From Physcomitrium patens (taxonomy: Eukaryota; Streptophyta; Bryopsida; Funariales; Funariaceae), in assembly GCF_000002425.4 (NCBI RefSeq), contig NC_037258.1, positions 18,035,706-18,099,705 on the forward strand: a stretch of 64,000 nucleotides of DNA, written 5' to 3'. Below the pieces are notes generated by a model. It ran no database searches and was not told where the DNA came from. It was given only the letters and a program-made list of their open reading frames with translations. Position 1 is the first letter of the stretch, and each line of letters opens with the position of its first letter. This document shows, piece after piece, positions 4,295-45,150 of this stretch. Both the position numbers and the translations under genes were made by a program.

Positions 4295-4727
4295 TGTCAT
4301 GGACATACATTGGAAGATTCTTCGAATATTCTTCTAGAATATTCTCTAAAGATTCTCTAAAGATTCCTTTAGAAGATTCTAGAAGATTCTTAGAATATTC
4401 CCTAAAGATTCTCTTAGAAGGTTGTAGAATATTCTTAGAAGGTTCTAGAATATTCTGATAGATTCTAGGAAGTTCCTCGAGAAGTTTCCTAATTAGTAGA
4501 AGTTGTTGGAGAAGCGTCCTAGTTAGCGGAAGTAGCTCGAGAAGCTTCCTATTCAGTAGTATATATAGGAGTCGAGGCTAAAGGGTTCTTCAGTCTCGAC
4601 AACACATCTCTTGGAGTTCTAGCTCACCTTTCTGGTGTTGTTCTTGTACTCATCTGTTTAATCTAGTTTTGCCACTTCTTCTTGAACTTCTTGTTAGATT
4701 TTAAGTCTGTATTTTGTGTCCGTGACA
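4295..4727 (+). repeat. 3' LTR of A1 (433 bp)
   Basis: The LTR starts TGTCATGGACATAC and ends GTGTCCGTGACA, so its ends form an inverted repeat of about 11 bp (TGTCATGGACA / TGTCCGTGACA). U3 holds closely packed GAA/TTC heat-shock-type motifs (4312-4460), followed by a TATA box (4560-4568) and a hairpin at 4571-4600. One stem base differs from A2 (A at 4580 opposite C), which weakens the hairpin. Confidence 0.93.
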
Positions 4728-5204
4728 GTGCGTAGGAAAAATCACTACAGATCGTGGAGAATTAAATGCACATGAAGCTCGTAAGTTCTTTGAAAAATGT
4801 GGAGTTAAACTATCACTGACTACTGCTTATAATCCGGAAGGGAATGCGAAAAGCGAACGCGGTCACCCGCCGATTGTGAAAGCATTGGTTAAAGCTTGTA
4901 ATGAGAAGGTTAAAGAGTGGCCACGGCTTTTGTCATTTGCATTATGGGCTGATCGAACAACACATAGTTCGGTGACAGGATATATGCCAGTAGAACTTAT
5001 GACAGGTCAAAAACCAATTATGCCGATTGAAGAAAAGGTACTTACTTGGAATATGCTACCATGGGAAGATGGATTGACAAGAGAAGAACTTCTGGCTATT
5101 AGGATTCGACAATTGGAGCAAAGAACGGAAGATGTCCAGATAGCATTGGGAAGGTTAAAAAGAGCAAGGTTACAAAACAAGGCGCGATTCGATAAGCAAC
5201 ATCG
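4728..5204 (+). pseudogene. Element C integrase, first fragment
   Basis: This is the Ty3/gypsy integrase core of element C, the host of the nested insertions. Visible features are TTDRGELNA (second catalytic Asp codon at 4750-4752), SERGH with the catalytic Glu about 34 residues later, and WADRTTHSSVTGYMP. The frame is open, is cut by B1 after 5204, and resumes at 11539. The 5' part, including the rest of pol, lies upstream of A1 and outside the window. From memory these motifs resemble basidiomycete gypsy integrases more than typical angiosperm ones; that is an impression, not a search result. Confidence 0.85.
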
Positions 5205-5734
5205 TGTCAAGGACAAGAACTCGATGAAAGCTAAAGAGTAAGTGAGACTTTTCTCAAAAAGAAATAGGACAAAATAGAAATATGTATATTAAGAAAGAAA
5301 CTGGAATGGCTATTGCCAAAATACAAGAAAACTAGAGACCCTTGAAACTAGACTAGAAGCAAGAAAGGAGTTGACAAGAGTGAAGAGGGCTTCACTCTTG
5401 CCTCTATATATACTATCTAACTAGAAGCCACGTGGCGATGTTCTATAAGACCTCCAATATATGTTGACTTTTTAGGCCACATGCCTTTGCTTGCAAGGCA
5501 AGTTTTCTATGGATGGACCACGTAGTTAGCTTGTTCTTTAAGCTTCCAACATGCGTGGCACATGGCTAACTTGTTGACCAAGTTTCTAACCTAAAAGTCA
5601 ACTATAGACTCCTATAAAGTCAAAGCAGTGTCTATGAAGCTTCTAAGAAGCTTCTCTAGAAGATATTACATAATTAACCTACTTTTACTTACTTTTATCT
5701 ATTCATATAGGTAATTATATGTATGTCCGTGACA
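5205..5734 (-). repeat. 3' LTR of B1 (530 bp)
   Basis: This is the downstream LTR in element orientation. On the - strand it runs TGTCACGGACATAC to CCTTGACA and nearly matches the copy at 11004-11533. It contains the TATA-proximal hairpin (5375-5400). The LTR differs clearly from that of B2 in U3, although the coding regions of B1 and B2 are almost the same. Confidence 0.94.
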
Positions 5735-10795: not shown

Positions 10796-10971
10796 AGTAG
10801 CACTTAGAAAAGAGAAGATGTCTAATAACGCTCAAAATAGAAGAGAGGAATTGATAACAAAGAAAATACTAAGAACAATATCAGTTTAAAAGAGGGTAAT
10901 CCGCAACTTCTAATGCGCTTATGTCTTATCAAGAAAAAGGGGTAATCCACTCTTAATCAAGAAAAGACAAA

Positions 10972-11001
10972 GCTCTGATATTGTAAGTGCACTCTTGTCA
11001 A
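10972..11001 (-). promoter_or_regulatory. Putative primer binding site region of B1
   Basis: Two bases inside the 5' LTR the - strand reads TTGACAAGAGTG (11001 to 10990). This is the exact complement of CACTCTTGTCAA at the predicted RNA start of the same element (11181 to 11170), a 12-bp self-priming pairing. A second motif, TATCAGAGC (10980 to 10972), matches the core of the usual initiator-Met tRNA primer site but lies 23 bases from the LTR. The first is favoured as the working primer site; this is inference. Confidence 0.6.
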
Positions 11002-11003
11002 TC

Positions 11004-11533
11004 TGTCAAGGACAAGAACTCGATGAAAGCTAAAGAGTAAGTGAGACTTTTTTCAAAAAGAAATAGGACAAAATAGAAATATGTATATTAAGAAAGAAAC
11101 TGGAATGGCTATTGCCAAAATACAAGAAAACTAGAGACCCTTGAAACTAGACTAGAAGCAAGAAAGGAGTTGACAAGAGTGAAGAGGGCTTCACTCTTGC
11201 CTCTATATATACTATCTAACTAGAAGCCACGTGGCGATGTTCTATAAGACCTCCAATATATGTTGACTTTTTAGGCCACATGCCTTTGCTTGCAAGGCAA
11301 GTTTTCTATGGATGGACCACGTAGTTAGCTTGTTCTTTAAGCTTCCAACATGCGTGGCACATGGCTAACTTGTTGACCAAGTTTCTAACCTAAAAGTCAA
11401 CTATAGACTCCTATAAAGTCAAAGCAGCGTCTATGAAGCTTCTAAGAAGCTATTCTAGAAGATATTACACAATTAACCTACTTTTACTTACTTTTATCTA
11501 TTCATATAGGTAATTATATGTATGTCCGTGACA
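11004..11533 (-). repeat. 5' LTR of B1 (530 bp)
   Basis: This is the upstream LTR in element orientation, ending next to the target duplication catcg (11534-11538). It carries the promoter for B1 RNA on the - strand. Several TTGAC cores (W-box-like) lie in U3, and a perfect palindromic G-box GCCACGTGGC sits at 11226-11235 just upstream of the TATA box. Confidence 0.94.
11170..11211 (-). promoter_or_regulatory. B1 promoter: TATA box and start-site hairpin
   Basis: TATATATA lies at 11211-11204 on the - strand. A hairpin follows (11199-11174) with 11-bp arms CAAGAGTGAAG / CTTCACTCTTG and a 4-base loop. Thirty bases from the TATA start, at about 11181, begins CACTCTTGTCAA, the 12 bases complementary to the primer site. 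RNA starting there would carry the primer as its first bases. Confidence 0.65.
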
Positions 11534-11538
11534 CATCG

Positions 11539-11683
11539 ATTGAGACCAAAAGCAATCGAAGAAGGTGACTGGGTACTTGTTTATGACAATAGTCTGGATA
11601 ATGAACATAGTACTTTGCGGAAATTTTCAAAACGTTGGTTTGGACCATATGTTATAACAACTGTTCATGATAATGCGACTTAC
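11539..11683 (+). pseudogene. Element C integrase, second fragment (GPY/F module)
   Basis: This continues the element C integrase frame after B1. It contains EEGDWVLVYDNSLDN and KRWFGPYVITTVHDNATY, the GPY/F module typical of Ty3/gypsy integrase C-termini. The frame has no stop and is cut by the 5' LTR of A2; cttac (11679-11683) is the target duplication. Confidence 0.88.
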
Positions 11684-11689
11684 TGTCAT

Positions 11690-11870
11690 GGACATACATT
11701 GGAAGATTCTTCGAATATTCTTTTAGGATATTCTTTAAAGATTCTCTAAAGATTCCTTTAGAAGGTTCTAGAAGATTCTTAGAATATTCCCTAAAGATTC
11801 TCTTAGAAGGTTGTAGAATATTCTTAGAAGGTTCTAGAATATTCTGATAGATTCTAGGAAGTTCCTCGAG
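11690..11870 (+). promoter_or_regulatory. Heat-shock-element array in A2 U3
   Basis: Alternating GAA and TTC units two to three bases apart, the consensus bound by trimeric heat-shock factors, recur through this stretch. Examples are GGAAGATTCTTCGAATATTC near the start and GAAGATTCTTAGAATATTC at about 11771-11789. The same array occurs in the A1 3' LTR (4312-4460) and the A2 3' LTR (about 23590-23760). The match is visible in sequence; heat induction is inference by analogy with heat-responsive plant retrotransposons such as ONSEN. Confidence 0.6.
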
Positions 11871-11948
11871 AAGTTTCCTAATTAGTAGAAGTTGTTGGAG
11901 AAGCGTCCTAATTAGCGGAAGTAGCTCGAGAAGCTTCCTATTCAGTAG

Positions 11949-11991
11949 TATATATAGGAGTCGAGGCTGAAGGGTTCTTCAGTCTCGACAA
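11949..11991 (+). promoter_or_regulatory. A2 TATA box and start-site hairpin
   Basis: TATATATA at 11949-11956 is followed by a 13-bp stem (11960-11989): GTCGAGGCTGAAG, loop GGTT, CTTCAGTCTCGAC, with one G-U pair. CAGTCTCGACAA (11980-11991), 31 bases from the TATA start, is exactly complementary to 12119-12130 just inside the LTR. The predicted transcription start is at or near 11980. Confidence 0.65.
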
Positions 11992-12118
11992 CACATCTCT
12001 TGGAGTTCTAGCTCACCTTTCTGGTGTTGTTCTTGTACTCATCTGTTTAATCTAGTTTTGCCACTTCTTCTTGAACTTCTTGTTAGATTTCAAGTCTGTA
12101 TTTTGTGTCCGTGACAGT

Positions 12119-12151
12119 TTGTCGAGACTGCATTTTCACTGGTATCAGAGC
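12119..12151 (+). promoter_or_regulatory. Putative primer binding site region of A2
   Basis: TTGTCGAGACTG (12119-12130) starts two bases after the LTR end and is the perfect complement of CAGTCTCGACAA in the R region, as expected for self-primed reverse transcription. TGGTATCAGAGC (12140-12151), a 12-base match to the common plant initiator-Met tRNA primer site, lies 23 bases inside the LTR, further than usual. Which one primes cannot be told from sequence alone. Confidence 0.6.
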
Positions 12152-12419
12152 TAGTTCCTTCTTGTTAGAGAGTGGATTACCCCTCTTCTTGAAGGTGTGC
12201 TAGTGTTTTAGAGGTTGCGGATTACCCTCCTCTAAACTGATATCTCTTCTTTCTCAATATTGGAGCCTTATTCTTCTTGGAGAGAGTGGATTACCCCTCA
12301 TCTTGGAGTCTTAAGGCGTTTTAGAGGTTGCGGAGTACTCTCCTCTGAACCAATATTGTCCTCTTGTCAAAACTCTTTTTTCTTCTTTCTGAAGGTTAGC
12401 TGAAGGTTAAGACGTTAAA

Positions 12420-19417: not shown

Positions 19418-19593
19418 AGTAGCACTTAGAAAAGAGAAGATGTCTAACAACGCTCAAAACAAATAGAAGAGAAGAATTTATAACAAAGAAAATACTAAGA
19501 ACAATATCAGTTTAAAAGAGGGTAATCCGCAACTTCTAATGCGCTTATGTCTTATCAAGAAAAAGGGGTAATTCACTCTTAATCAAGAAAAGA

Positions 19594-19627
19594 CAAAGCT
19601 CTGATATTGTAAGTGTACTCTTGTCAA
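19594..19627 (-). promoter_or_regulatory. Putative primer binding site region of B2
   Basis: On the - strand TTGACAAGAGT, starting two bases inside the 5' LTR, pairs with 11 bases of its own R region (ACTCTTGTCAA); the twelfth position has changed (A for G) relative to B1. TATCAGAGC lies about 23 bases inside the LTR, as in B1 and A2. Confidence 0.55.
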
Positions 19628-19629
19628 TC

Positions 19630-20181
19630 TGTCAGGGATAAGAACTCGATGAAAGCTAAAGAGTAAGTGAGACTTTTTTCAAAAAGAAATAGGACAAAAT
19701 AGAAATATGTATATTAAGAAAGAAACTGGAATGGCTATTGCCAAAATACAAGAAAACTAGAGACCCTTGAAACTAGACTAGAAGCAAGAAAGGAGTTGAC
19801 AAGAGTGAAGAAGCCTTCACTCTTGTCTCTATATATACTATCTAACTAGGGGCTACGTGGCGACGTTCTATAGGACCTCCAATATGTGTTGACTTTGTAG
19901 GACACATGCCTTGACTTACAAGGCAAGTTTTTCTACGTGTGGGCCACATAGTTAGCTTGATCTTCAAGCTAACAACATGTGTGGCACATGGCCAACTTGT
20001 TGACCACGTTTCTAATCCAAAAAGTCAATTAAAGACACTTATGAAGTCAAAGCAGCGTCTAGGAAGTTTCTAGGAAGCTTCTATATTAAATATTATACAA
20101 TTAACTTACTTTTATCTACTTTTACTTACTTCTACCTATTTCTATATGTAATTATTAGCTTACATGATTATGGCCGTGACA
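19630..20181 (-). repeat. 5' LTR of B2 (552 bp)
   Basis: Upstream LTR in element orientation, adjoining duplication tccgt. TATATATA lies at 19837-19830 and the R hairpin at 19826-19799, with 12-bp arms ACAAGAGTGAAG / CTTCACTCTTGT. The G-box palindrome of B1 is altered here. Confidence 0.94.
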
Positions 20182-23575: not shown

Positions 23576-24029
23576 TGTCATGGACATACATTGGAAGATT
23601 CTTCGAATATTCTTCTAGAATATTCTCTAAAGATTCTCTAAAGATTCTCTAAAGATTCCTTTAGAAGATTCTAGAAGATTCTAGAAGATTTTTAGAATAT
23701 TCCCTAAAGATTCTCTTAGAAGGTTGTAGAATATTCTTAGAAGGTTCTAGAATATTCTGATAGATTCTAGGAAGTTCCTCGAGAAGTTTCCTAATTAGTA
23801 GAAGTTGTTGGAGAAGCGTCCTAATTAGCGGAAGTAGCTCGAGAAGCTTCCTATTCAGTAGTATATATAGGAGTCGAGGCTGAAGGGTTCTTCAGTCTCG
23901 ACAACACATGTCTTGGAGTTCTAGCTCACCTTTCTGGTGTTGTTCTTGTACTCATCTGTTTAATCTAGTTTTGCCACTTCTTCTTGAACTTCTTGTTAGA
24001 TTTCAAGTCTGTATTTTGTGTCCGTGACA
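23576..24029 (+). repeat. 3' LTR of A2 (454 bp)
   Basis: It is 21 bp longer than the 5' LTR through extra copies of CTAAAGATT and TCTAGAAGAT motifs in U3, which enlarges the GAA/TTC array. TATA box at 23862-23869; hairpin at 23873-23902 with an intact 13-bp stem. Confidence 0.95.
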
Positions 24030-24034
24030 CTTAC

Positions 24035-25670: not shown

Positions 25671-26905
25671 CCGCATGCCAAAAAGTTTCAAAAAAAATTT
25701 CAAAGCTCCAATCTAGCTTGCATCTAAATATTGTTTAATCTCATCTTATTAGTTTTCAAATTGCATTGTAATGCAATCATGGCTCTTATAAATATACTTA
25801 AAGATATACTTGCTAGCACAAATAGATGCACATACCTCAATACTAATATGACAATTGTACTTTTAAGATAGTTTTAGACAAAATAGAACAATGTCCTTAT
25901 TGTCAACAACTACTTCTTGAACTTCAAATATTTTTCTATTATTTCTTCATTGATAATGAGAATATCCATTGATATCCATTTTTATTTCTTCTACAAACTC
26001 TTTTGGATACTTCTTTATACTACAATCATCTTCCATACAAGGCACTTGAAGATTTTGCACTCAACATGGATCATGTACCATGCATTATAGAATGACTTCA
26101 AATAGCTTTTGATTATTTTCTTTATCTCAAAATTCTATAGAAACCATATGATTTACATTTCTAGTATATCTAATCTTATTTTTGGTGCATATAAAATAGA
26201 CATATTTTTTGAAACTTAATAGTATAAACATGTATAATAACATGACCAAAGAAAATTCCTTTCTTTATATCTTCCATAATTGTACATTTCTTAAGCTTAA
26301 ATATACAAGGAATCAAATCTGGCTGCTTACTTGCTTATTATCTTTAAAGCAATTAATTCTTGATTTTGAACCATCTTGAATTTTCTATCATTTTCATAAA
26401 AATACTAAGATGCTAAAAAAACTTTGTAATTATCATAGAATCTTAAAGCATTTCTATTATATATCTTGCACTTTGAATATGTAATGATAGAAGTAAGATC
26501 CTATGTTTTAAAGTATTTAATTTATATTATCCTTCTTGAAGCCTAATATTTTGATGAGTTACAATAGCATCTACTAATCCTTGATAAAAATAAGTATATA
26601 GATTTTTGTAATTATAACATAGATATTGTAAATATATTTGCTTAATTACTATCCATCTATCAATTATAAATTCTTATAATAGCTTTTTTCTATATAAAAT
26701 TATAGAATACTTAGTAAGTCTTTAAAAAAATTGATAAATAAAATAATCTATTTATGTAAGGCTATTACATCTCCAATCTTCTTGTCTAACACCTTCTTTT
26801 TTTTTAATAATATTCATCATTACATTTTTTGCCCTTACGTCAAGATACCATCTAAAAGTTCTATGTAGAAAAAATATATATGTAATGAAGGGACAAATAA
26901 GCAAG
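25671..26905. other. AT-rich stretch without a recognisable gene
   Basis: This lies between the element C LTR and element D. It is AT-rich with many stops in all frames and no supported coding or RNA gene. It contains TTTTGGATACTTCTTTA (near 26001), which recurs near 63796, hinting at a decayed dispersed repeat. Confidence 0.6.
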
Positions 26906-26910
26906 ATAAG

Positions 26911-27531
26911 TATTGTTCTCATTGCGTTCAAGCTTCAATATACCAAAGCAATTGAACTAATAGAGGTGGGTTCGAACTCGGGAAAAGATTGGTTATATGA
27001 ATTGGGTCTGTTAGTGTTACAATTAACTGTACTCTCGCTATCTGAAATCAATTATCAAACTATAAAATACCAAGGCTTACTACTTTTGTCTTAATTCAAT
27101 ATATAATCCATTCTATGATTATTAATTCAACAATACTTCTCTCAATCACAATTCTTCATAAGTAAATAATAAAAGCAAAGAAAACAAAGAGGTAGCACCA
27201 AGCTTATCCCGACTTATGACTGTGACAGTCTAGCTCCCCGACTTACGACTCTCATAGTCTAGCTCCCCGGCTTACGACTTTTATAGTCTGGTCCCCGGCT
27301 TACAACTCTCACAATCTCGCTCCGATCTCCTTTTCTTCAACTTCTTTATCCTACCCAGAAGATGGACTATCGGCCAGCAGATTCCAAAGGTTATGAACCT
27401 TTGAGTTCTTAACCATTTGTTCTACTAACAACCTACTGCTACCAACTAAACTACCTAACTATAAGTCTAATTCTCAAGGTTGTCAATAACCAATCAGTAA
27501 CTTATTACAAAATTTATTTACATATTCTACA
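26911..27531 (-). repeat. 3' LTR of element D (621 bp)
   Basis: It aligns over its length with 35444-36006; on the - strand it begins TGTAGAATATG and ends GAGAACAATA. An internal repeat of CGACTTATGACT / CGGCTTACGACTTT units (about 27208-27320) makes it longer than the 5' LTR. Confidence 0.88.
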
Positions 27532-27539
27532 TAGCTCCA

Positions 27540-28060
27540 CTTCTAATTGTGCAGCATCCTCGCAAGCATTATTTAGCCTCAACTTATAAAGACGTAGGAA
27601 TGTTGGCTTCTTTAGTTAATGGCGTTGCCTTACCACCCTTTGAATTGGTGACCTCCTCTTCTGCTACATCTTTATCATCTGCCTCAATGTTCAAGGGTTC
27701 TCCATCTAAACGCGGCATCAAATCTTCATTCAACAAACCCAATTCCCGTACCTGAGACTTTAGATGTGCAATTTAATTATTGCGCTCCTCCAATATCTTC
27801 TGTCATTTTTCTGTTGATTTCAAAAGTATCTCTTAAGGTGTTGTCGCTGAAACTGGCATATTGATCCACATTAAATTATTGGCATCCTTCGCTAATGCGG
27901 CTAGTTTAGTCTGTAACATTGCAACCTCTACCTGCAGCTGCTCCTACTGTTCCTTCCAATCGATCTCCATCCTTGCTTTTTCAAATACCATGTTTTCCAT
28001 CTTCTCCTTTTCTGCCATCCACTTCTCCTTAACTACAAAAAAAAACACGATGCTTGTCAA
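27540..28060 (-). pseudogene. Degenerate coiled-coil ORF downstream of D integrase
   Basis: On the - strand a frame with scattered stops encodes lysine, glutamate and leucine heptad-like segments (MAEKEKMENMVFEKARM, VAMLQTKLAALAKD, LKSQVRELGLLNEDL), then an acidic tail. This looks like a decayed coiled-coil protein region between the integrase and the 3' LTR, a place where some plant Ty3/gypsy elements carry extra coding sequence. Function unknown. Confidence 0.55.
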
Positions 28061-28129
28061 GAGCCCCCCTCCTACTTTTTACTATGGTCCAATCAATTGG
28101 GTCGACTCTCCCTTCTGTAACAGAAAACC

Positions 28130-29240
28130 CGTCCCAAGTTTATGTATAGTAAAGTTTAAGCCGATTGCCATTGATCCGTGTCGTAAATTTAGTACCCATA
28201 AAATCTTCTAATTGCACTGAACCATTTGAAAATCTGTCAATAACTCAAAATGGTCTATGCCATCGACCTTAAAATTTTCCTAGAAAATTTTTAAATCAAC
28301 TATCATAAAGAAATATCAAATCATTTGGCATAAAAGCCTTTGGTCTAAGCTTACTATCATAATAAATCTTCCTTCATTTTTGTGTAGTTTTCATCATCAT
28401 TAATGCATTGGCTCTAGTTTCATCCAATTTTTCCAATTCTTCTAAACAGTGCTGTAATGAATCATAATCTCTCAATCTATTATCTATAGTAATTTATAAA
28501 CTTTGGACTTCCAATTCAATAAGTAATATTGCTTCTTGGCCATAAACCAATTGAAAAGGGGTAGCATTGGTAGTAGCTTTATACGCAGTATGGTATGCCC
28601 ATAAAGCTGTGAACAAATTAGAGTCCTAATCTTTTCTCGCTCTTGAATTTTTTTTTTTTAAGATTTTACATAAAATTCTATTAGTCTTTTTCGTTTGTCC
28701 ATTGGCTCTATGATGATACAGTGTAGTCTTATAATATTTTATCTCATATTTAGCCGTAAGTGCTTTGATTGTACTATTTATAAAATAAATTTCTCGGTCA
28801 CTAATCAATTCTTGTGGACAACCGAACCGTATAATAATATTTTCATACAAAAAGGTTGCTACTGTACTTGCATTATCAATTTTCGTAGCTATGACTTCAG
28901 CCCATTTTGTTACGTAATCCATTGCTACTAGTACATACTATTTTTCTTCATTTCTCGAGGCTGGTGCAATTGGTCTCGCAAAATCAATTTCCCATTTTTC
29001 AAAAGGCGCTTGAGTCAAAATTGGTACCAATGGCATTGCTGAAGTTCTAGTAGGTCAACCCGTTTTCTGACATGGATCATGATGACGGACAAATTGGTGG
29101 ACATTTGCAAACATTGTTGGCCATGAATAACTAGCCTGTAAAGCTTTACGAGCCATGGTGTCCCTCGCAAAATATCCACCACAACTGTGCAAGTGGCAAC
29201 CTTCTAATATAGTACTCACTTCAGTCTGATAAATATAATG
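28130..29240 (-). pseudogene. Integrase of element D (decayed)
   Basis: Recognisable pieces are a zinc-finger remnant (HQFVRHHDPC with QKTG), the core MDYVTKWAEVIATKID, LISDREIYF with the catalytic Asp, and HHRANGQTKKTNR, where the Glu of the usual TE motif is replaced by Lys. A C-terminal segment contains TRINGNRLKLYY. Stops and frameshifts make it non-functional. Confidence 0.8.
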
Positions 29241-30660
29241 TCACAAAACTCCATCTTTGCCTTGTTTATATAAAGCTTCACCAATCATCATATAAGGTGC
29301 ACATTTTAATATTAAGTATTGTTTAAGTTTTTCATTAAAATTAGATGGGAAGGTTTGAAATGTCAAGTATTGAATTATTTCACTATACTTTGGAGTAATT
29401 ACATCTATCAAAAAGAGTTCTGCATCGGGTAGTGTATCGTTAATGGGTTCATTACCCAGTATATTGGATAACCGAGATAAATGGTCTGCATTAAAATATG
29501 ATTTTTCTGGTCTTACCTGAATAGTAAAGTCAAATTCTTGCAAGAATAAAATCCATCATGCAATACGACCACTTAATTGAGGCTTATTAATCATATATTT
29601 TAAAGCATCATGGTTGACATGGAAAACAAATTTATAACCAAGAAGATAAGGTCGAAACTTTTGTATGGAATAAATCATCCCCAATGCTTTTCCTTCGGTT
29701 GTTGTATAATTTCTTCAGCTGCTACCAATTGATGACTTGCATAGTAAATAGGGTGATCAAATCCCCGGTCATCTTTCTAGCTTAGCACAAAATCAATTGC
29801 GATATTAGATGCATCCACATAAACTTGGAATGGTTTTGTCCAACAAGATGCCACCAATATTAGTATTGAAACCAATTTCTGTTTCAATGTTTCGAATGCA
29901 ATTGTACATTCCTTTGTCCAAAATAGACTAGTCCCATCAGTTGGTGGTTTCTTCAAGAGATTTGTCAAAAAAAGGCACATAACTCCAAATAGATAGATAA
30001 ATTGCCAATAATAATTGACATGGCCGACAAATGCTCGAACACCCGTAATAGTGTCTAGTTACTTTAATTCTACTATAATCTTTATTTTATCCGGATCTGT
30101 AGTAATGCCTGCCATTGAAATTATATGATCCAATAGTTTACCAAAAGGCACACCAAATTGGTACTTTTTCAAATTTAAAAAAATTCCATGTTTGGCACAT
30201 TGATTCAAACATTGATCAAGACATTCTAAATGTTTGGCTCTCGTACTAAATGTATAGAAATCATCTAGAAATATTTCCATTGAAATTCGTAGATAATCTT
30301 AGAACGCTTGCGTCATTACCCTTTGAAATGAAGCTGGTGCATTATAAAGCTCAAATGGCATAACCTTATAGGCAAAGATTCCCGAATCTATACTAAAAGT
30401 ATTTTTTAACTGGTCTTCTTTTGCAATCTTAACTTGATTATAACTAGAGAATCCATCAAGAAATGACTAACATTCATGTCCAGCGACGGCATCCAATATA
30501 CTATCTATGAATGGTAAAAGAAAATAATCCTTCTTGGTAGCCGCATTTAATTTTTGAAAATCTTGACAGATGCAAACTTTTCCATGTTTTTTTGGTACCA
30601 TAACAATTGGTGAAATCCATTCACTGAAAGGAACCGCATAGATAAATCCAACCTCCAAGA
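29241..30660 (-). pseudogene. Reverse transcriptase and RNase H of element D (decayed)
   Basis: RT pieces include SEWISPIVMVPKKHGK and MEIFLDDFYTFS; the catalytic FLDD box lies at 30260-30271. RNase H includes QVYVDASNIAIDFVLS, with the Asp of the DAS motif kept. Sequence connecting to the integrase includes FNADHLSRLSN. Several stops break the frame. Confidence 0.82.
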
Positions 30661-31495
30661 GTTTATCCAGTTCTTCTTTTATTATAAGTGAATATTTTAG
30701 ATTAAGTTGATGTTGTCTCTAGCATACTGGTTTAGCGTTCTCCTCCAATATAATTTAATGCTCACAAACTTCAGTTGGAATTCCTTTCAAATCCACATAT
30801 GATCATGCAAAAGTAATTTTATGCGTTAAAAAGTAATCTACCCAAATTTCTTTCTCTTTGCCTTTTATATTGTCATAAATCTGAATGATTTGAGGAGCCT
30901 CCCGTGTACTTAAATTAATTGGTTGACATCGTGGAATTTTAGATGTCTCTAGAATAATATTCTGCTCAATTCTAGAATCTTTCATAAAATCCAATACATT
31001 AGAACTTTCTAACTCTAGTTCCATAGTACTAACGTGATTAACATTTTGTCTATTCATCCAATATGCAACCATATGATCAAAATCGTGAATAACATTTGGA
31101 GGAACTAAGTACTCTCCCGATTCCCTGTACTAGTATTTCATTCTAGTGTGCTTGATAACTTACCTTGTATCAGCATAAATTGGATCAGGTGCACCAATTT
31201 CTTCTTCTATAGACTCATCTTCACAATCCGACGTGAATTCTGAACTAGCAACTTGAGTTTCTCTATGATATTGGACAGGGTAAATTTGAAGCATAATTTT
31301 ATCATTACCTTTTCTAATTGTCAATGTACCATGGTCTCAGTTATTTCAAGCTTTAGCTTGATACAACTATGGTCACTCCAATAAAATTGGGTATGAAAAT
31401 ATAGAGCTTCGCAATCAAAAAATAATATAATCAATTTTGTAGGTAATTTCCATAATTACTATATCAATACTTTATAAAATATCCACAAGTTTAAC

Positions 31496-31760
31496 TCAAG
31501 TGAAGTCAGCTATTCTCAAAACCACTATAGTAGGCAATAGATGATCGAAATCCAACTCCTTCATTGTAGCAACATTCATAAGATTTACACTAGATCCTCC
31601 GTCTACTTGCACTTCTAATAATAACACTCCATCAATTGAGACATCAATCATTGGTGCACCCGGATTGGGATTCAAACTTACTTCTTGGATTTCTTTATTT
31701 CGAGTTCTTCGACGAATTAATGAAGAATTCAAGATAGTTTGGCACTCATGTGCTATTTCC
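31496..31760 (-). pseudogene. Aspartic protease of element D
   Basis: APMIDVSIDGVLLLEVQVDGGSS-type sequence with the active-site motif DGG (VDGGSSVNLM) in place of DTG/DSG, a variant seen in several plant Ty3/gypsy lineages. It follows a gag-like stretch in a neighbouring frame. Confidence 0.7.
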
Positions 31761-31962
31761 AATAGTTGTTTCATAGAGATCGTGGGCTGTATGATGCCCA
31801 AATCTTTTAAAATATCATATGATTTTGTATTAGTAGTAATTTCCAATGTCCATTTTTTCTTCCCAGTTCTAGACATTGACGTAGGTAAATTGGTTTTCTC
31901 TATATTAGAAATTGATAAAGTTATTTGAACTGAAGTTGATGGAGCTTGTGAAATCGGTTCTT

Positions 31963-32930
31963 TCAATTGTAAGATTGTTCTCTCAATTGGGCTGATATTA
32001 GTTCCTTGGAATTCATGCCTCTTAGAAAATCTTTCAATGGAAAGGATGTTTCCCAAAACTTTGTAGAGAACAAAACATCTTGACATAGAACCGAAGCCTC
32101 CGTAATCAATAATTCATTAGGTTGCACAACCGATTCAGGTTTTATATTGAGTAAGGGGCCCATTTCAGGACCTGGATTGGATGACCTTGTAATTGGGTCC
32201 AATTGGCCCTTTACTTCAGGATCATCCAAATGTTGAATTGGTCCTTTCTCCTTTTTCTGACTTCTTGTAAGGACAGCTTGGACTACTTCTACTCGATGAA
32301 TTGGTGAATCTTCAGGACCTTGATTTATCTCCTCTATTTTTCCTTGGCTTTGGATTTCCTGATATCGATTATTGAAATTAAACGGAGCATTATATTGCTG
32401 ATAAGTATGTCCCAACTGCTTGCAATTTGCACACACTGGTGCATAATCATCATTGGCTCTGGGATTGAGACATTCACTGACATAATGACCAATCTGTCTG
32501 CAATGGAAACAAGTAGTCTACTTGTAGCTCCATCTGGCATATTGGGCATCTCCACCAATATATACCTACTAGGCTTATTCTATGTAGGGTTAGAAGTTAA
32601 TTGTGGTTGTCCCGTTGGTACGGAGGATATTTAATTTGATGACGTTGGTGGAGCATATTGCTGATACCTCTGCTGCTCCTTCTCGTAGTTCTAGGGATTT
32701 GATGCAGACTCCTAATTAAAATTGGAACTTTGATAATTATTGAATGTTCAATTTTATCAATTAGATCGATTTCCATTCCATTTATACGTATTTCTTGTTT
32801 GAACTTGATTGACTTCCCACTGAGTCGATGGGATCATGGTCTGATTATTGAATTGTTATTGCCTTTGTAAATGCCAGCAGTTTTGGGTAGGATGCTTTCC
32901 TCCGTAAAATATACATTGAACACATGTTCT
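31963..32930 (-). pseudogene. Gag C-terminal (nucleocapsid) part of element D
   Basis: It contains a series of CCHC-like knuckles: CVQCIFYGGKHPTQNC near 32890-32940, CFHCRQIGHYVSEC and CANCKQLGHTYQQY near 32400-32510, the last with its final Cys lost. Stops separate the pieces. A lone element C LTR interrupts the gag just upstream. Confidence 0.75.
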
Positions 32931-34116
32931 TGTATCAAGTGCTATCTTGCTTGAGAACATGTTGGGCGTCTGGTTGTAAGAGATAGTATGGACATTTGCT
33001 AATATTCAAGCAGTCTATCGGTTTTTGATTGTTAGAATATAAACGATTGTAAGAATATACGATAAATCTATATGGATATCCTTCGACTGCTCGTCGAAAT
33101 CTTTTTTGCCTCAGCCGGTAGGTCTCTAGATGTTACAGAGAACCTCAAACAACCTAATCTGCTAATCTCTAATACCGCTTTATACTCACGACCTTGTATC
33201 CACTGATTGTCTTGTTAGATTAACCCAAAAATTTTCATTTACTCCACATACTCAATCCTATAGATACCCTTTTAACTCTTCAATCACAGATGTAACTTCG
33301 ATTTACAAAACAGTCAAGAGTAATCACACCCACTTCATTAAAACCCCGATTCACCAATACAACATATCGACCTCTCAGCATTGATTGCCAGAAGTCCCCT
33401 TTTCTGACCCCTACCCAAAAACCTTGTATCCTCCCTTTTTCTTAACCTCCCTAATTTCCGAATCTCTGAATCCTCTCCTCCGCCCTAACCATTTCCGAAT
33501 GTTTTTCTCCTCCTCTCAAACCCTAATCATTTCCCAAATATTTTTCTCCTCCTTTCAAACCCTAACCATTTCCTGAATATTTTTTTTTCCTCCTTTCAAA
33601 TCCTAGCCTCTGAATTTCTTCAATCTTCCATCTTGGATCCAAAATTGGCTCCGTTGTCAGAGCTTTCTCCTTCATTTTTTGCCTTTTAAAAGGTTCTTTT
33701 TTTGGAAACAACGTTCTTTGAAACGGCACAAAGAATAGGACAGCCTAAAGTAGAATCGAAACCCCCCATAATCGGGACCACATTGAGTCGCCCGACCAAA
33801 TCAGGTCTCATATTGGCTAAGAGGCCCGTAGTAAGACCTGGATGTTCCCGTAATTGGATCAAATTGGTCCTTTGCATCAGGCTTGCTTAGTCATCGATTT
33901 AATCCTTTCGATTTTATTGACTCCCACTATTGGACTCGAATGGAGCATTTCATTATTGGTAAGTATGCCCTGACCGACTGTGACGGGGTATCTGAAACTG
34001 GCCCCTGAATATTGGCACTAGAATCGGTCGTTGCTCCCAATATTCGAGGTAACTAAACATTAATAAAAGTCCCCTTTCTTTATATTTTCATGGTATACTC
34101 GTGTTACAATACGACA
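32931..34116 (-). repeat. Lone LTR of family C inside element D gag
   Basis: On the - strand it starts TGTCGTATTGTAACACG and ends TTGATACA. It is an inverted, diverged copy of the LTR at 24298-25670 (1186 versus 1373 bp). No internal element C sequence accompanies it, so it is a solo LTR left by LTR-LTR recombination. I could not find a matching 5-bp duplication. Confidence 0.82.
33478..33600 (-). repeat. About 40-bp tandem repeat, three copies, in the lone LTR
   Basis: Units starting near 33478, 33517 and 33556 share CAAACCCTAACCATTTCC and TATTTTTCTCCTCC-like parts. The LTR at 24298-25670 lacks this array. Confidence 0.75.
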
Positions 34117-34199
34117 CCGTTTGTCTGGGTGATGGATATTTTGTATCAAAATAACCTTGTCCCTTACAATTATTATACCATATATTAGGTCTCATATTA

Positions 34200-35104
34200 C
34201 AAGGCTTATGTCATTTCTCCTTATCTTTAGCCAAATTCACGGCCAATTCTTCCATCTTCTTTGTTAGATTTAATAATAAGGCTTCATTTGGATCTTTAAC
34301 AGTTGTATTTGTGAACAACTTCGGTTGTTGATAGATTGGTGATGTAAAATAAGGTGTTATTATTATTGGCGCTATTACTTGGAGAGGTGTAGCATTAATT
34401 GATTTTTGCAACATAACATTCTTCATGTTGGAGTCAGCCATTTGTAGATAATTATTCATCGACACATTTTTCGGTTGTGTTTGTTGGCTTGCTGAACTTG
34501 GAATCATTGTGGCCTCCACTGTTAATAATTGGTCATAATGACATTCTTCCCACATCTTTGCTCGTGGCAACGATGCCTCTACCGTAGCTAGTCGAGCCTC
34601 TTTTACAAACATTTTCAATTCTCGTGGATGCAAACCATTGATTAATATCGACAATATCAATGCATCTGGCATTTGATTAATTGACCATTTGTGAAGTATA
34701 TCTCTGACCTGGCAATAATAGGACTCTATTGATTCTCTCGCAAATATCTTACTATTCATAAAACTTTCTCGAAGCCGATCTTCAAATCCAATTGGTCTAA
34801 AATGGATTAAGAAGGCATTCCTCAAGGCCTCCCAATTGGAAAATCTACCCACTGGTTACCGAATATACCATTCAAAAGTTATATCTTTTAAAGTTGTTGG
34901 CAACCATCTCAACCAAATGTCTTCAGTTCTATGATTATTAGCCATGTAGGCTGTCAAGAATTGAGATATATGGTGATTGGGATCAGAGCCCGGCCAACCA
35001 CTAAAACTAGGTAATGGTGCCACACTTGTAGTTAGGTCTCCTACTGCTCCCATTTGTACTGCAATTAGTACTTCTGGCATTCTTGCGGCCATTGGTGTTA
35101 TCAC
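34200..35104 (-). pseudogene. Gag N-terminal (capsid) part of element D
   Basis: Two open stretches in sequence carry PSFSGWPGSDPNHHISQFL, WLPTTLKDITFEWYI, WEALRNAFLIHFRP and ESIESYYCQVRDIL, which follow the pattern of the plant retrotransposon Gag capsid domain. A stop (about 34853-34855) separates the two parts; the frame runs into the lone LTR. Confidence 0.78.
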
Positions 35105-35423
35105 TGGTTTCTTTGGTATTTGAATTTGAATTTTTCTTCTTTTGATTTTACTTGAACCTACAATTCATTTTTGTCGTTCCCGTAGGAGATTTCTTATGCA
35201 TAATCGCTCCTGTCTTTCTTTTGCTTGTCGATTAATTCTTTGATAATCCTCCCCTTCATGATTATTACTCATAATCTTTCATTCTTCTTTACAAAATCAA
35301 TACTGCCTTGAATTATAACTCACATATTTATAATCCTAAAATTGGTTCTTCTCATGTTCTCATTCAACATATAATTCCATCTTTCATACAATCAATTTCT
35401 ATCATTTCAAATTGTTATCATTT

Positions 35424-35443
35424 CCCCGACAGTAGTGCCAAAA
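35424..35443 (-). promoter_or_regulatory. Decayed tRNA-Asp-type primer site of element D
   Basis: Immediately inside the 5' LTR the - strand reads TGGCACTACTGTCGGGGA. From memory the plant tRNA-Asp primer site is TGGCGCCGTTGCCGGGGA; 13 of 18 bases agree and the differences are transitions, several at CpG sites. Confidence 0.65.
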
Positions 35444-36006
35444 TGTTGTTCTCATTACGTTCAAGCTTCAATATACCAAAGCAATTGAACTAATAGACGT
35501 GGGTTCGAACAGAGGGAAAGACTGGTTATATAAATTGGGTCTGTTAATGTCACAATTGACTATACTCTGGCTATCTGAAATCAATTATCAAACTACAAAA
35601 CACCAAGGCTTACTACTTTTGTCTTGATACAACACATAATCCATTCTATGACTATCAATTCAATAATACTTCTTTCAATCACAATTCTTCATAAGCAAAT
35701 AATAAAAGCAAAGAAAAAAAAGAGATAGTACTATGCTTATCTTGGCTTATGATTCTCATAGTCTGGCTCTCGGCTTATGACTCTCACAGTCTAACTCCGA
35801 TCTCTCTTTCCTCAACCTCTTTATCCTACTAAAAAGATGATCCGTCAGCCAACGGATTTCAAAGATTATGACCCTTTGAATTCTTAACCATTTATTCTAC
35901 TAACAACCTATTGTTACCAACTAAACTGCCTAACCATCAGTCTAATTCTCATGGTTGTCAATAACCAACCAGTAACTTACCACAAAATTTATTTATTTAT
36001 TCTACA
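35444..36006 (-). repeat. 5' LTR of element D (563 bp)
   Basis: It matches 26911-27531 with many substitutions and a deletion in the CTTATGACTCTCA repeat portion, indicating an old insertion. It is flanked by ataag (36007-36011). Confidence 0.88.
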
Positions 36007-39296: not shown

Positions 39297-42200
39297 TCAC
39301 CTGGTCCGTAAGAATCCACGCACATCAGACAAAAATGAATACAGGTTCTCCCTAAATTTTCGACGATTCTGACGATCCAGTGAGGATGTCACTTGATTTG
39401 CGTTTAAAAGAACGTGGAAAGCTGTGGCAAGCCGACTTTGCAAAAGCGCGTTATTCTGTCCCTCAAGTAGTTCCAGTGCTAATCTCTGTTTCAAACCAAA
39501 CGTGACCAACGTGTCACCTTCATTCAATGCGTGCAGAGAAAGTACAAGTAAAGAGAAATAACGAAATTGTTCAAACATCGTTACAGTGGAAAAAGAAAGT
39601 ATGAAACAGCTACCAATAAGCTTGTACTTGGAATGATTACCTGATACAAAGCAGTATTGCACAAGACCAGGGGCAGAAGAGCATCTGCGGCTGGCTCCAC
39701 AAGCTCATTACTGCAATTATTTGAACACCCAAGTACAGAGCCATCAGACTTACTGACAAATGAACAACACGCATTACAGGACTAGGGATCTCATTACTAT
39801 GAGGTGAAAGTGACTCGTAGGTTGGATTTAAAGAGCACGTTTCAAGTAGGGTCTAACTGATAGCAGAGGCAGCCGAAAATTATCAAATCAGGAAGCCGAG
39901 AAGAGCAGATCATGAAGAATTGAGGACGGACAATCTGGCTCTTCAGTACTGATTCAGGTCCCTAAAATTTTCTGGTCGTTTGTCTCCATATTGAGAGACA
40001 AAGAATTTAGTCTGTTACAAACAGCTTTACGAGAGACAACAGAGAAATTGTTCAAGTGTAATTACCTGTAGTCATCAAACAGAAGGAATTGGATGACTGA
40101 TCTGAGAAAATGATCCAATACCCCTTCCTTCACCACTCCATGAGCGTTTTGGATACTAAGTGCATGTACACCAAGACCCTCTTGGCCTCTACAAATTGCC
40201 TGATAATGATAAAATGCTACAGCATTCAATGCTGTGAACGACATGCTCACAACCTCCACGTCCTGCAAGAGTAAATGCTGATTAACAAGTAGACTAGTAT
40301 TGCATGATTCGTAAAACTCTAAGAAGTTCTAGATCACATTCAATCGTACAACACTTCTGAATTTCAATAGTATCCAACAAGCTCTCGAGAAATGAAGTCA
40401 TCTAGTAATACTATTTTCCAGATAATGGTATATGGGATTTACCTGATGCCGCAAACCAAAGTCCAGAGTACTCGCAATCCTGGAAAATCCTTCAGGTGAT
40501 AGCTTTGCGACTTTCTCAGGATAAACTTCCAACATATGAGCCAATAAGGTGAAATACTGGAACACGACACAAAATTGGCTCATCAGGAATGAAGGTGAAA
40601 TCAAAATCAGCTACTACTGGTTTGAAGAACAAACGTCGCATCGCCAGAGATTTCAGCAAGGCACCCAGAAGTGAATCACGTGCAACTCAAGAACAGAAAT
40701 ATGTCATTTCTCAATGCATCTAAGAAACGGAAGCTATATTCAACTCGAACAGCGAATGTTCCGAATACGAACCTGGCGGCACAATTTCGGGTATTTGAGA
40801 AGATCAATTGTCATAAGTGGTGTAATAATATGCAAACCCAAGTAAACAACCTGCCATAAACGAAATAAGTGATCAAAACATAGGTCAAAGAAATTTAAAA
40901 CTCTTATTTAGCTCCATATTTTAAAACTCTTACTTAGCTCCATATCAATGTCCTTCGACTATCTGCTGTCAAAGATAAGCTCCTGGCAAACAAAAGAAAA
41001 ATAAGACTCCAACAGAACTATGTTAAAATAAGACTAACGATCCAGGACTAGTGACAGAGGATGCTGAGCATGAGAAGCCCACTTGTTGCGATGGGACTAC
41101 AAAAAATGTTAAAAATCAAATGTTTTACTCACTTGTGCAACATCAGGATTTTCTACTTCGCCATTGACATCACACGCGAAATCAATCTGCGGCATTAAGA
41201 GAAAAGTAAGTAACATATGTACATGCTACAAAGAGAAAAAACAACAAAAAGCACAGAATGGATACAAATATTCTCCTGCAAAATAGAGAACCAACTCGCT
41301 GAATAACGGTGCAACACACTCACAAGGTCCTTCGAGCTCAAATTGGTCAAGAGCTGAAGTAAAGCCCGCAGGTCCTTGTACTTTTCAGTTTGGCTCTCAC
41401 TCAACAAGTTCGTTGACGCGCTTATAGATACTTTCCCAATATTATGAGCAGAATATATCTCAAGCAGCCGTACACAAAAGCTGAAAAGGATGGCTGTGTC
41501 CTTAGCCTCCAGAAATGCTACTTGACCGTCCACCCAATCGACGACATATTTGAGCACCAAGTAGATCACAGAAGACTGCACCACTCCCACATGTGGATAT
41601 ATTTAAGAGACGTGAGATATCCTTCACGCGTTTTCACAATTCAACGTAACGCAAGCCCAAAGGATAATATCAAATGACATGAAAGAATTAATAAAAAGTG
41701 CGAGGTGTCTGACAATAATATTCTACTAATAATCACAACTATCCGTCATGAGACATCTCTGCTGTAGACATCATTCTAGTAAACTACACAATGTCATCAG
41801 CTTTCCATTAAACACACAAAGCATACCGCAATCAGCATTCAGACTTCTTGTCTGCATTAGCATGATACCCATATTCAACGAATACACTACAGTAATCATA
41901 ATAGGTACGACAATTGGAAGCTATCTGCGAAAAGTTCCCCTATTTTAAACTCTTGAGGTTCTTGTCAAGTTCCCATACCTGGTGTTTGTAGGTTTGCACC
42001 AATACCAACAATGGCTCCATAACTGCAGCCCCTACATCGAAAATTGCTTTTTGACTTCGTGGCAATGTAGCTCTTGCTGCCCCTCTTAATCTTTCAATTA
42101 GACAACTCACCTATAATTATACATGAGATAATGCTTAGAACATCAACGGATTTAAATTATAACTAAATAGCTAGAGAGAGATTAAAGACTGAGCGAATCT

Positions 42201-45103
42201 TCAGCCCACAGACACTACACTGGTGTCACCACAGATCTTATAGACCACGATAATCACGAGATATCACACCAGATTCCACATTAAATCTATCCGTCGCTCT
42301 ATCCCTTAATGGGACAGCAGGACAATACTTGGATGATTCTTCATTCAACTCAATCCCATGCACAAGCCTGCAATCAACCACAAGGCAGAGGCTATCCGGT
42401 CTCTCTGTCCAAACTACTTTCATACCATAAACAAGATTGATGGGATCGACAGAAATTCTCCATCAAGACTATCTATTGAATTCAACGCAGCAAACCTATC
42501 CTTCTGGTTCTTGTGACAAACATGAGGACTTTCATTCAACATTTGCAGGATAAATTCTCCACAACAAACAGCAGGACAAGATACACTAGAACGAAATAGT
42601 CAAATACAAATATGTGGACATATCTCACCTGCATGATGACATCAGCCTGCTGTGCAAAGGCTTGCAGATCATCATGTTTTGAAAGAGAAGACAAAGTATT
42701 GGTTATTGGACCCAACAAATCCCTGACGTACCTGCACAAAAGAACTAGACTTATAAATGAACATGTAACCCACCAGAACTAGAGAAGTTTTCCAACCATG
42801 GAATTGATATAATATTCTACGATTGTGGATGCTTGAATTCAGAACAGTAATAAAGATTCCGATGCCAAGAAAGAAACAAAGAAGATATATATGCTGAAGA
42901 AGAAGAGGAATAAGTTCCACGTTCACATAAAACAAACCAGAAATTAGAATATAAATATATATGTTTTGACAAAGGTGGAGAAGTCCCACATCCACTTACT
43001 GATTGGTTGCATCGCCGCTGCCCATACCAGCTGCTGATCGACAGAGGGCCTCTGACAATGCACGCTGCATCACCAAAACAAAATGCAAATTATTTCAATA
43101 TCATGCAAAAACTGGCCGCACTACAGATGACTCCAAATTCAAGGAGTCGTTCGTAAAATGAAAAAGTTAGCATTTATTCGCATACTTTACTTGATTTGGT
43201 GCAAGAGCAGCCCCATGGACAAACTGCTCAAAAACCATTATAAATAGCGTTTGTTCTAACCTGAATTGAAGACGCAAGCAGTGAAAGAGGAGGTTGTTGG
43301 TATGCAAAAGCCTGAGCCAACTCCTGCCAAGGTTCCTGCACATGAATCGCTTCGTTTTAAACTTCATAATCCTAACTCACTCATAAGCTGATACAATTTC
43401 AATATCTGCCAGTTGAAAAGCCGAGGACCCTTTACTGGCCAAATGTAGCAAGTCATCCAATAACATGATAAGCATGACATTAAGATCGAACATATTCACG
43501 ACTTTCTTTCTGTTAAGAAACCACAATCACTGAACACTTGCTAAAATATGCGACACGGGTATTTCCATTCAGGAATACAATATGATTAATGAAACCCACC
43601 AGAGTGACTAAATGAACACAAATGTTGCGTCTCCGGACCAGGGACGGAAGGAGCTGGAATCCCGCAAGTTCCTGACACGAGAAAAAAAGAATTGAACTTC
43701 AAAAATTGCCCAGGCAGGAGGTCTCATCAAAGTTGAAGTAAACCGGTTTAACCCCCTCCATACAGCCGAAAAACTGGACAAACATAACCACATTGTGTAA
43801 CAAAAAACATACCTGCAATGTTCGTTCACCAGGCCACGCTGTGAGCGCGGCTACAGCTACCCTTACAAGTACATCCAGCACAATTTTACCACCCCCTTCC
43901 TCTCCAAATGCCATGACTAGGGGATGAAGTTGTGGACCGGCTATGCCAGACATCTGCTGTTGGTCGCCTTCGTTGCTCGAAGGAGTAGAGTTGGGTCCTC
44001 GCCCTGCGTCGGCTGGCATTAAGTATGTGTCCACCCATCTCCCAAAAAACCACACGACAGCCTGCAAGCGATAATCCAACTACTTAAGAACCATTTGTAC
44101 ATCATTTGTACTCGGTTGCACCAGATTATGATTATGAACGTGGACACTTGCAAAACGCGAAACCGTCTCATATTTTTCTGAAGTAAAAAGGTCATCCTCG
44201 CCACTATTTGAATGATGAACTTCACAATTGGCAATATGCAAATTATTTCTTATGCCAAGTAGGATCAGAGTTTCTCAGGGTGTCTCAAACAATACTAGGA
44301 CATTTTACAAACCCGAAACTTAAAACCATCGGTTTCAAACAGTGAGACTCTACAATCTGAAGAGTGAATGGCCAGATATACTAGCACGATCTATTAACTT
44401 AATTATTCTAGAAATATATCTACTGAGACTGCATCATTGACACAATAACTGCAACCGCGGCATGTAAGAGCGAGAGTATTGTTGTCTTGTGATAAATTGG
44501 TCATGTCACAAGAAACAGGCTCCACCTACACATCTGTAGACTAGCAACATTTGAAGCATTAAAAATTCAGAGAGAATAAAAAGCAACGCATCTCTTATTG
44601 CTACCTCCATCAGACGCGAACTGAAGAACTCCGTTCGAAAAGCTATATTCAGGCTCTGGCGTGCCAATTCAATGACGGATCTGGAGCCAAAAAGACATCT
44701 CATAAGCACCAACCAACTTAAAAACTTCGCAGTCTTCAAAAACACAAAACGTTGTTGAAGCAAAAGTAAATAGAGCGAAGGACAAAAACATACACCATGC
44801 TCAAACAAAGCACTAGGAACTTCATTCATATTCCAAAATGAAAAAGACACAGATGCCAACCGAGAAAGTAACACAGCTGGATGATTAGCAGCCTCTGCTG
44901 TGCTCACACTCAGCGCTGATATGGACTCTGGGACCTGCAGATGAATGTCCAAGAGATCTTTTTTAAGAACATACAAAAGTAACTCGTAGAAAATTCTCAT
45001 CACGACTTCTGAAAACAAGAGGCTGGTACAGAGGGTCAGACAAGTCCAAGAACAAACAAAAAAATATATTTGATAATAAAAACACAATGTAATATAAGAA
45101 GAA

Positions 45104-45150
<47 letters not shown>

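Follow-up and report, generated by a model that had tools for sequence, protein, structure and literature searches.

Probable Tf1-like self-priming in two chromovirus families of the moss Physcomitrium patens

Introduction

In Tf1 of Schizosaccharomyces pombe, the first 11 bases of the RNA, which are complementary to a primer binding site (PBS) adjoining the LTR, serve as primer and are cut off between bases 11 and 12, according to the available parts of PMC7175516. R/PBS complementarity and proposed self-priming are likewise on record for Tj1, Tosmo1-3, and Tcry1 of fission yeasts (PMC4600332, PMC10085805). In plants, self-priming has been predicted for 12% of the LTR elements analysed, including most members of the moss and clubmoss Tcn1 clade, and has been predicted or proposed for the self-primed Ty1/copia elements termed TAR (PMC6317226), which are copia elements whereas those described here are gypsy elements. 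Tf1/sushi elements occur in nonseed plants, and self-priming has been called a common feature of the group (PMC10085805). For the related SM-Tcn1 of Selaginella, the authors found evidence of neither tRNA priming nor self-priming, as far as the available sections of PMC2864245 state. Fungal GalEa elements do not have a tRNA PBS and carry a hairpin in the priming region (the Conserved Hairpin Site), which recalls the elements described here; the GalEa hairpin, in contrast, follows the 5′ LTR, and no complementary U5 inverted repeat was found in these elements, according to the portion of the source at hand (PMC5445492).

The present analysis concerns two families, A and B, in the window, i.e., the whole 64,000-nucleotide stretch of Physcomitrium patens DNA that was analysed. 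With a probability of about 0.9, their sequences indicate moss chromoviruses that belong to the Tf1/sushi group (plant Tcn1 clade) and in which minus-strand synthesis would be primed by the element's own RNA.

Element A and its putative primer complement

The 5′ LTR of element A (11684-12116, + strand) has TGTCA...TGACA ends (TG...CA), its 3′ LTR lies at 23576-24029 (+), and a 5-bp target duplication (CTTAC) flanks the element, occupying 11679-11683 on one side and 24030-24034 on the other. A family-B element, B2, is nested inside A, and a second A copy, A0, has its 3′ LTR at 4295-4727 (+) and its 5′ end outside the window. Within the sequence of the A 5′ LTR, a TATATATA box (TATA) occupies 11949-11956 (+), and CAGTCTCGACAA is located at 11980-11991, 31 nt downstream of the TATA start. 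Over 12 nt, CAGTCTCGACAA is the perfect complement of TTGTCGAGACTG at 12119-12130, which is separated from the end of the 5′ LTR by the two bases GT. The initial annotation had drawn attention to this arrangement, and its coordinates are right. A complement of at least 12 nt beginning 0-5 nt past the LTR arose in 0/2000 dinucleotide shuffles of the A LTR. With at most one mismatch, CAGTCTCGACAA occurs four times in the window, namely at three A-type R starts and as the inverted copy at 12119-12130, the mean in shuffles of the window being 0.21. The pairing of 12 bases thus stands, but the conserved unit is shorter than initially proposed: because copies differ in the outer C:G pair, it comprises 11 nt, consisting of a putative self-primer at 11981-11991 (+), which would be RNA bases 1-11, and a PBS at 12119-12129 (+).

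Family B and matched changes

Both family-B elements lie on the minus strand. B1, with its 5′ LTR at 11004-11533, has its putative 11-nt self-primer at 11170-11180 and its PBS at 10991-11001; in B2, the corresponding positions are 19630-20181, 19796-19806, and 19617-19627, and the twelfth base (19616) is unpaired. The layout is that of A in other letters: the TATA box is followed by the primer at a distance of 30 (B1) or 31 (B2) nt, the LTR terminates with TGACA, and two bases, GA, separate it from a PBS that matches the primer. Between A and B, three primer/PBS pairs are altered on both sides. When six representatives were aligned, 95.8% of the primer/PBS cells paired, as compared with 27.8-38.9% after sliding by 1-3 columns. 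Of the five covariation measures, three were above all 500 shuffles; the other two were reached by 107/500 and 319/500 shuffles, which is to be expected, since the change between A and B represents a single evolutionary episode. The LTR pairs differ at 8/433 aligned positions plus 21 gapped columns in A, at 5/530 aligned positions in B1, and at 4/552 in B2, and these few differences point to fairly recent insertions.

Other retroelement-like sequences accompany A and B in the window. An open frame between A0 and B1 (4726-5241, +) resembles the integrase of another retroelement and has no Pfam match at E 0.001. An old, broken gypsy-like element (~26900-36000, -) carries diverged direct repeats at its ends (26913-27531 and 35446-36006); when this element (~26.9-36.0 kb) was examined as a control, its LTR ends could not be fixed.

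Conservation across genomic copies

Loci picked by LTR and leader, being the best query matches, lean to near-identical copies in both families (A: 30 cut out of 40 scored, from 2425 first-look candidates; B: 30 of 40 scored, from 2171). The 11-nt core is intact in 30/30 A loci, of which 28 retain all 12 pairs and two have the outer pair alone broken. It is equally intact in 30/30 B loci. At the twelfth PBS position, 21 of these carry A and nine carry G, and in one of the 21 the R base immediately preceding the core is additionally changed from C to G. For a second sample, loci were chosen by RT rather than LTR similarity, with 20 of 96 scored matches (A-like) and 20 of 95 of mainly A-like match length; four of these 40 loci (L078, L099, L108, L112) lacked a leader within the extracted sequence, so that 36 were scored. 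A perfect 11-nt primer/PBS match is present in 28 of the 36 leaders (15 + 12 + L101), and primer or PBS defects occur in the other eight (L091, L092, L093, L095, L106, L107, L109, L111), several of which are C to T or G to A changes of the kind expected from post-insertion decay. Of the 28 perfect leaders, 23 have A and five have G as twelfth PBS base, the opposite base in R always being C for the A type. The initial annotation had suggested a covariation check and had held that a loss of complementarity in most intact copies would speak against its proposal; with the core retained in 30/30, 30/30, and 28/36 loci, complementarity persists in most of the loci examined.

One A-like subfamily (L096, L097, L098, L100, L101, L103, L104, L106, L109, L110, L111, L114) resembles A only from LTR position 216 onward: R, U5, and PBS are the same and the upstream U3 is different, which suggests an exchange of promoter parts. 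A further A-like element, L001, 78% alike over 392 aligned LTR and leader columns, is found in a contig (CADCWO010000091.1) filed under a cyanobacterial MAG; it is probably a moss-type retrotransposon that entered this assembly by contamination. L001 carries CAGTCTCGACAA and GT TTGTCGAGACTG. The distance from TATA to primer is 30-31 nt in A, B1, B2, and L001, and the shuffle test for a 12-base complement 0-5 nt past the LTR gave 0/2000 for B1 as well as for L001. Primer/PBS pairing is kept both in subfamilies ~79-89% alike and in L001.

These data bear on the explanation that the similarity arose by chance or as a by-product of a palindrome-prone promoter. A third, inverted copy of the primer sequence exists in U3, and LTRs can yield longer matches by chance, as illustrated by B2, whose 11-base pairing length was reached in 5/2000 shuffles with a shuffle maximum of 13. 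Given the shuffle tests of A and B1, the matched changes between A and B, and the conservation in the diverged subfamilies and L001, this explanation is already disfavoured and its probability is close to negligible.

A predicted hairpin at the U3/R junction

The inverted copy in U3 forms one arm (11960-11972, +; a near-copy of the PBS) of a predicted hairpin whose R-side arm (11977-11989, +) includes 9/11 primer bases. The hairpin has 13 pairs and a 4-base loop, with one G.U in A and 12 pairs in the L096-like subfamily. This inverted repeat of the primer region, located between TATA and R, is present with its 4-base loop in all seven LTRs of the window and in L001, the A0 3′ LTR having one inner pair less. 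Among the RT-picked loci, it could be scored in 35/40, with 13 positions paired (including G.U) in 20, one pair short in 14, and two short in one; 13 pairs were obtained from shuffled U3 in 1/20000 (A) and 0/20000 (B1) cases. The U3 arm also tracks the primer change between A and B, so that U3 arm, primer, and PBS all match. When RNAs starting at the core and cut 60 nt past the PBS were folded, primer:PBS pairing reached 0.88-0.94 in 5/5 representatives, whereas with 22 extra upstream bases it fell to 0.00-0.01 in 5/5. Folding further predicts a central duplex and flanking stems, as in the three-duplex 'pretzel' RNA structure of Tf1; for Tj1, Tosmo1-3, and Tcry1 such flanking duplexes have been inspected in the elements, as far as the available text of the sources tells, whereas those of A and B are folding predictions.

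Because the RNA start is deduced from sequence, the R/PBS pairing could in principle be real and yet serve genome circularisation, packaging, or strand transfer, with the RNA starting upstream or elsewhere and another primer being used. An RNA starting 22 nt upstream would indeed, on folding, form the U3/R hairpin instead of the PBS pairing. However, for the observed LTR end to arise, minus-strand DNA would have to begin just where the PBS lies, two bases past CA; the unit has 11 bases as in Tf1, and the TATA distance places the start at the core. Such another role is therefore given little probability.

If self-priming is assumed, the hairpin may act as a primer lock. Transcription would start inside it, which would make the hairpin impossible at the RNA 5′ end while allowing it at the 3′ end, so that the 5′ primer copy alone would reach the PBS, with U3 arm, primer, and PBS co-evolving three-way. 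This proposal is tentative and somewhat more likely to fail than to hold. No such lock was found in the literature searched, in which the primary Tf1 papers are incompletely covered, and no priority is claimed.

The tRNA look-alike and the leader domain

A tRNA-iMet look-alike, TGGTATCAGAGC, is located at 12140-12151 (+) in A, beginning 23 nt past the LTR end. Its twelve bases are those of the usual plant iMet primer site. The complementarity between R and PBS would be incidental if the elements were primed by tRNA-iMet at this site, and tRNA-Met is described as the common primer of most plant chromoviruses in the accessible part of PMC6317226. A cDNA started there would, however, gain 23 extra bases, and the matched R/PBS changes would be left unexplained; a tRNA-complementary PBS 0-5 nt after the LTR, by which tRNA-primed plant chromoviruses (Tekay, CRM, Reina, Galadriel) are recognised, is not found. 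The look-alike also differs between loci: a tally of the 40 RT-picked loci gave TGGTATCAGAGC in 15, AGATATCAGAGC in nine, CAATATCAGAGC in three, TAATATCAGAGC in one, AGATATTAAAGC in one, and no reading in 11. One of the three CAA rows in this tally stems from L083, whose own A leader has TGG; a reading of L083 as an A/B chimaera was rejected, the B part being merely a nested neighbour. The TGG of the look-alike is replaced in B (by CAA), in L094, and in the L096-like subfamily, and the segment is missing from L001.

Alignment of five leader domains places the look-alike in one strand of a closing stem, within a predicted structure of 38 pairs, nine of which have changes on both sides. The domain consists of this stem and two hairpins with GGATTACC-like loops and shows compensatory changes. 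It occurs twice in A (12136-12366, +), as copy 1 at 12140-12247 and copy 2 at 12252-12366 (both + and with approximate ends), and once each in B1 (10870-10985, -), B2 (19496-19611, -), and L001 (L001:306-412). Rfam and tRNA scans of the window gave no matches. The domain is perhaps a packaging or dimer signal, and the look-alike can be read as a structural stem with a coincidental resemblance to a tRNA site. Priming by tRNA-iMet was rejected in view of its spacing, the subfamilies and L001, and the covariation of the leader stem, and its probability is very small.

Classification and host

In A0, Pfam domains follow the order protease, RT, RNase H, integrase, Tf2-1-like SH3 (PF24626), and chromodomain (PF00385), i.e., a chromodomain is present after the integrase. 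In copia elements, the integrase precedes RT. The gene order of self-primed Ty1/copia elements (TAR) is not that of A0, where integrase and chromodomain come after RT/RNase H. A quick tree of 32 RT pieces, supported by SH-aLRT only, rooted on three angiosperm rows and built without a reference Tcn1 sequence, places A, B, L001, and metagenome elements together in a clade that has vertebrate sushi-like rows as neighbours (SH-aLRT 83). This clade falls inside a larger set with fungal Tf2-like rows and apart from tRNA-primed angiosperm chromoviruses. A and B group with Tf1/sushi chromoviruses; their assignment to Tcn1 is based on the host and on published work. Searches of IMG/VR yielded no confirmed relative of the RT piece, and a 17-mer scan of the same collection returned eight stretches, not above the chance expectation by our own estimate.

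The window also contains a multi-exon host gene for exportin-4 (XPO4; 39300-50968, -), which is nearest to moss proteins. Identity over aligned pieces, some of which run into introns, is 73.7% with Ceratodon, 71.0% with Sphagnum, 70.1% with Physcomitrium, and 63.6% with Riccia, followed by Diphasiastrum (58.6%), Selaginella (50.3%), and Carica (47.3%).

Proposed mechanism and implications

Transcription would begin with the A of TTC|A, which in element A is located 32 nt downstream of the TATA start. By analogy with Tf1, the first 11 nt would then pair back onto the 11-nt PBS, which follows the LTR after two bases, and cleavage by RNase H behind base 11 would release a 3′ end for extension into U5. 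The two bases between LTR and PBS would be those trimmed by integrase next to CA. Since plus-strand synthesis would copy the primer, R would rewrite the PBS in every cycle, which would explain why exactly 11 bases change together. The U3/R hairpin may hide the second primer copy at the RNA 3′ end. The Tf1-like self-priming put forward in the initial annotation is thus supported at the level of sequence by the TATA position, the spacing of two bases between LTR and PBS, the unit length of 11 nt, the matched changes between A and B, the conservation in most copies, and the lack of a properly placed tRNA site.

A and B share with Tf1 the complementarity of the first 11 RNA bases to an LTR-adjoining PBS, the chromodomain, and a related RT (PMC7175516, as far as available). 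They differ in their moss host, in that the mechanism is inferred, and in the covarying U3/R hairpin, for which the literature searched, seen in part, offers no Tf1 counterpart. Host kind, chromodomain, and predicted self-priming are common to them and the plant Tcn1-clade chromoviruses of moss and clubmoss (PMC6317226, in its available part), to which A and B add matched changes on both sides of the pairing, a boundary at 11 nt, and the U3/R hairpin. The novelty of such priming in a plant was overstated, because PMC6317226, as far as its text was available, predicts self-priming for most plant Tcn1-clade elements, and the present elements, which reside in a moss, group with Tf1/sushi. The moss case is a strong new example of predicted self-priming, not the first; what is possibly new is a U3/R hairpin that would hide the 3′ primer copy.

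The hairpin provides a testable answer to the question of why, in an RNA with the primer sequence at both ends, only the 5′ one would be used. Both families are abundant, with 2425 first-look candidates for A and 2171 for B, and their best-scoring copies are near-identical, so that measurements of RNA start and strong-stop cDNA would be feasible. For land plants, where the literature found, as far as its text was available, gives predictions only, matched changes and a length boundary now provide evidence that these elements probably prime themselves.
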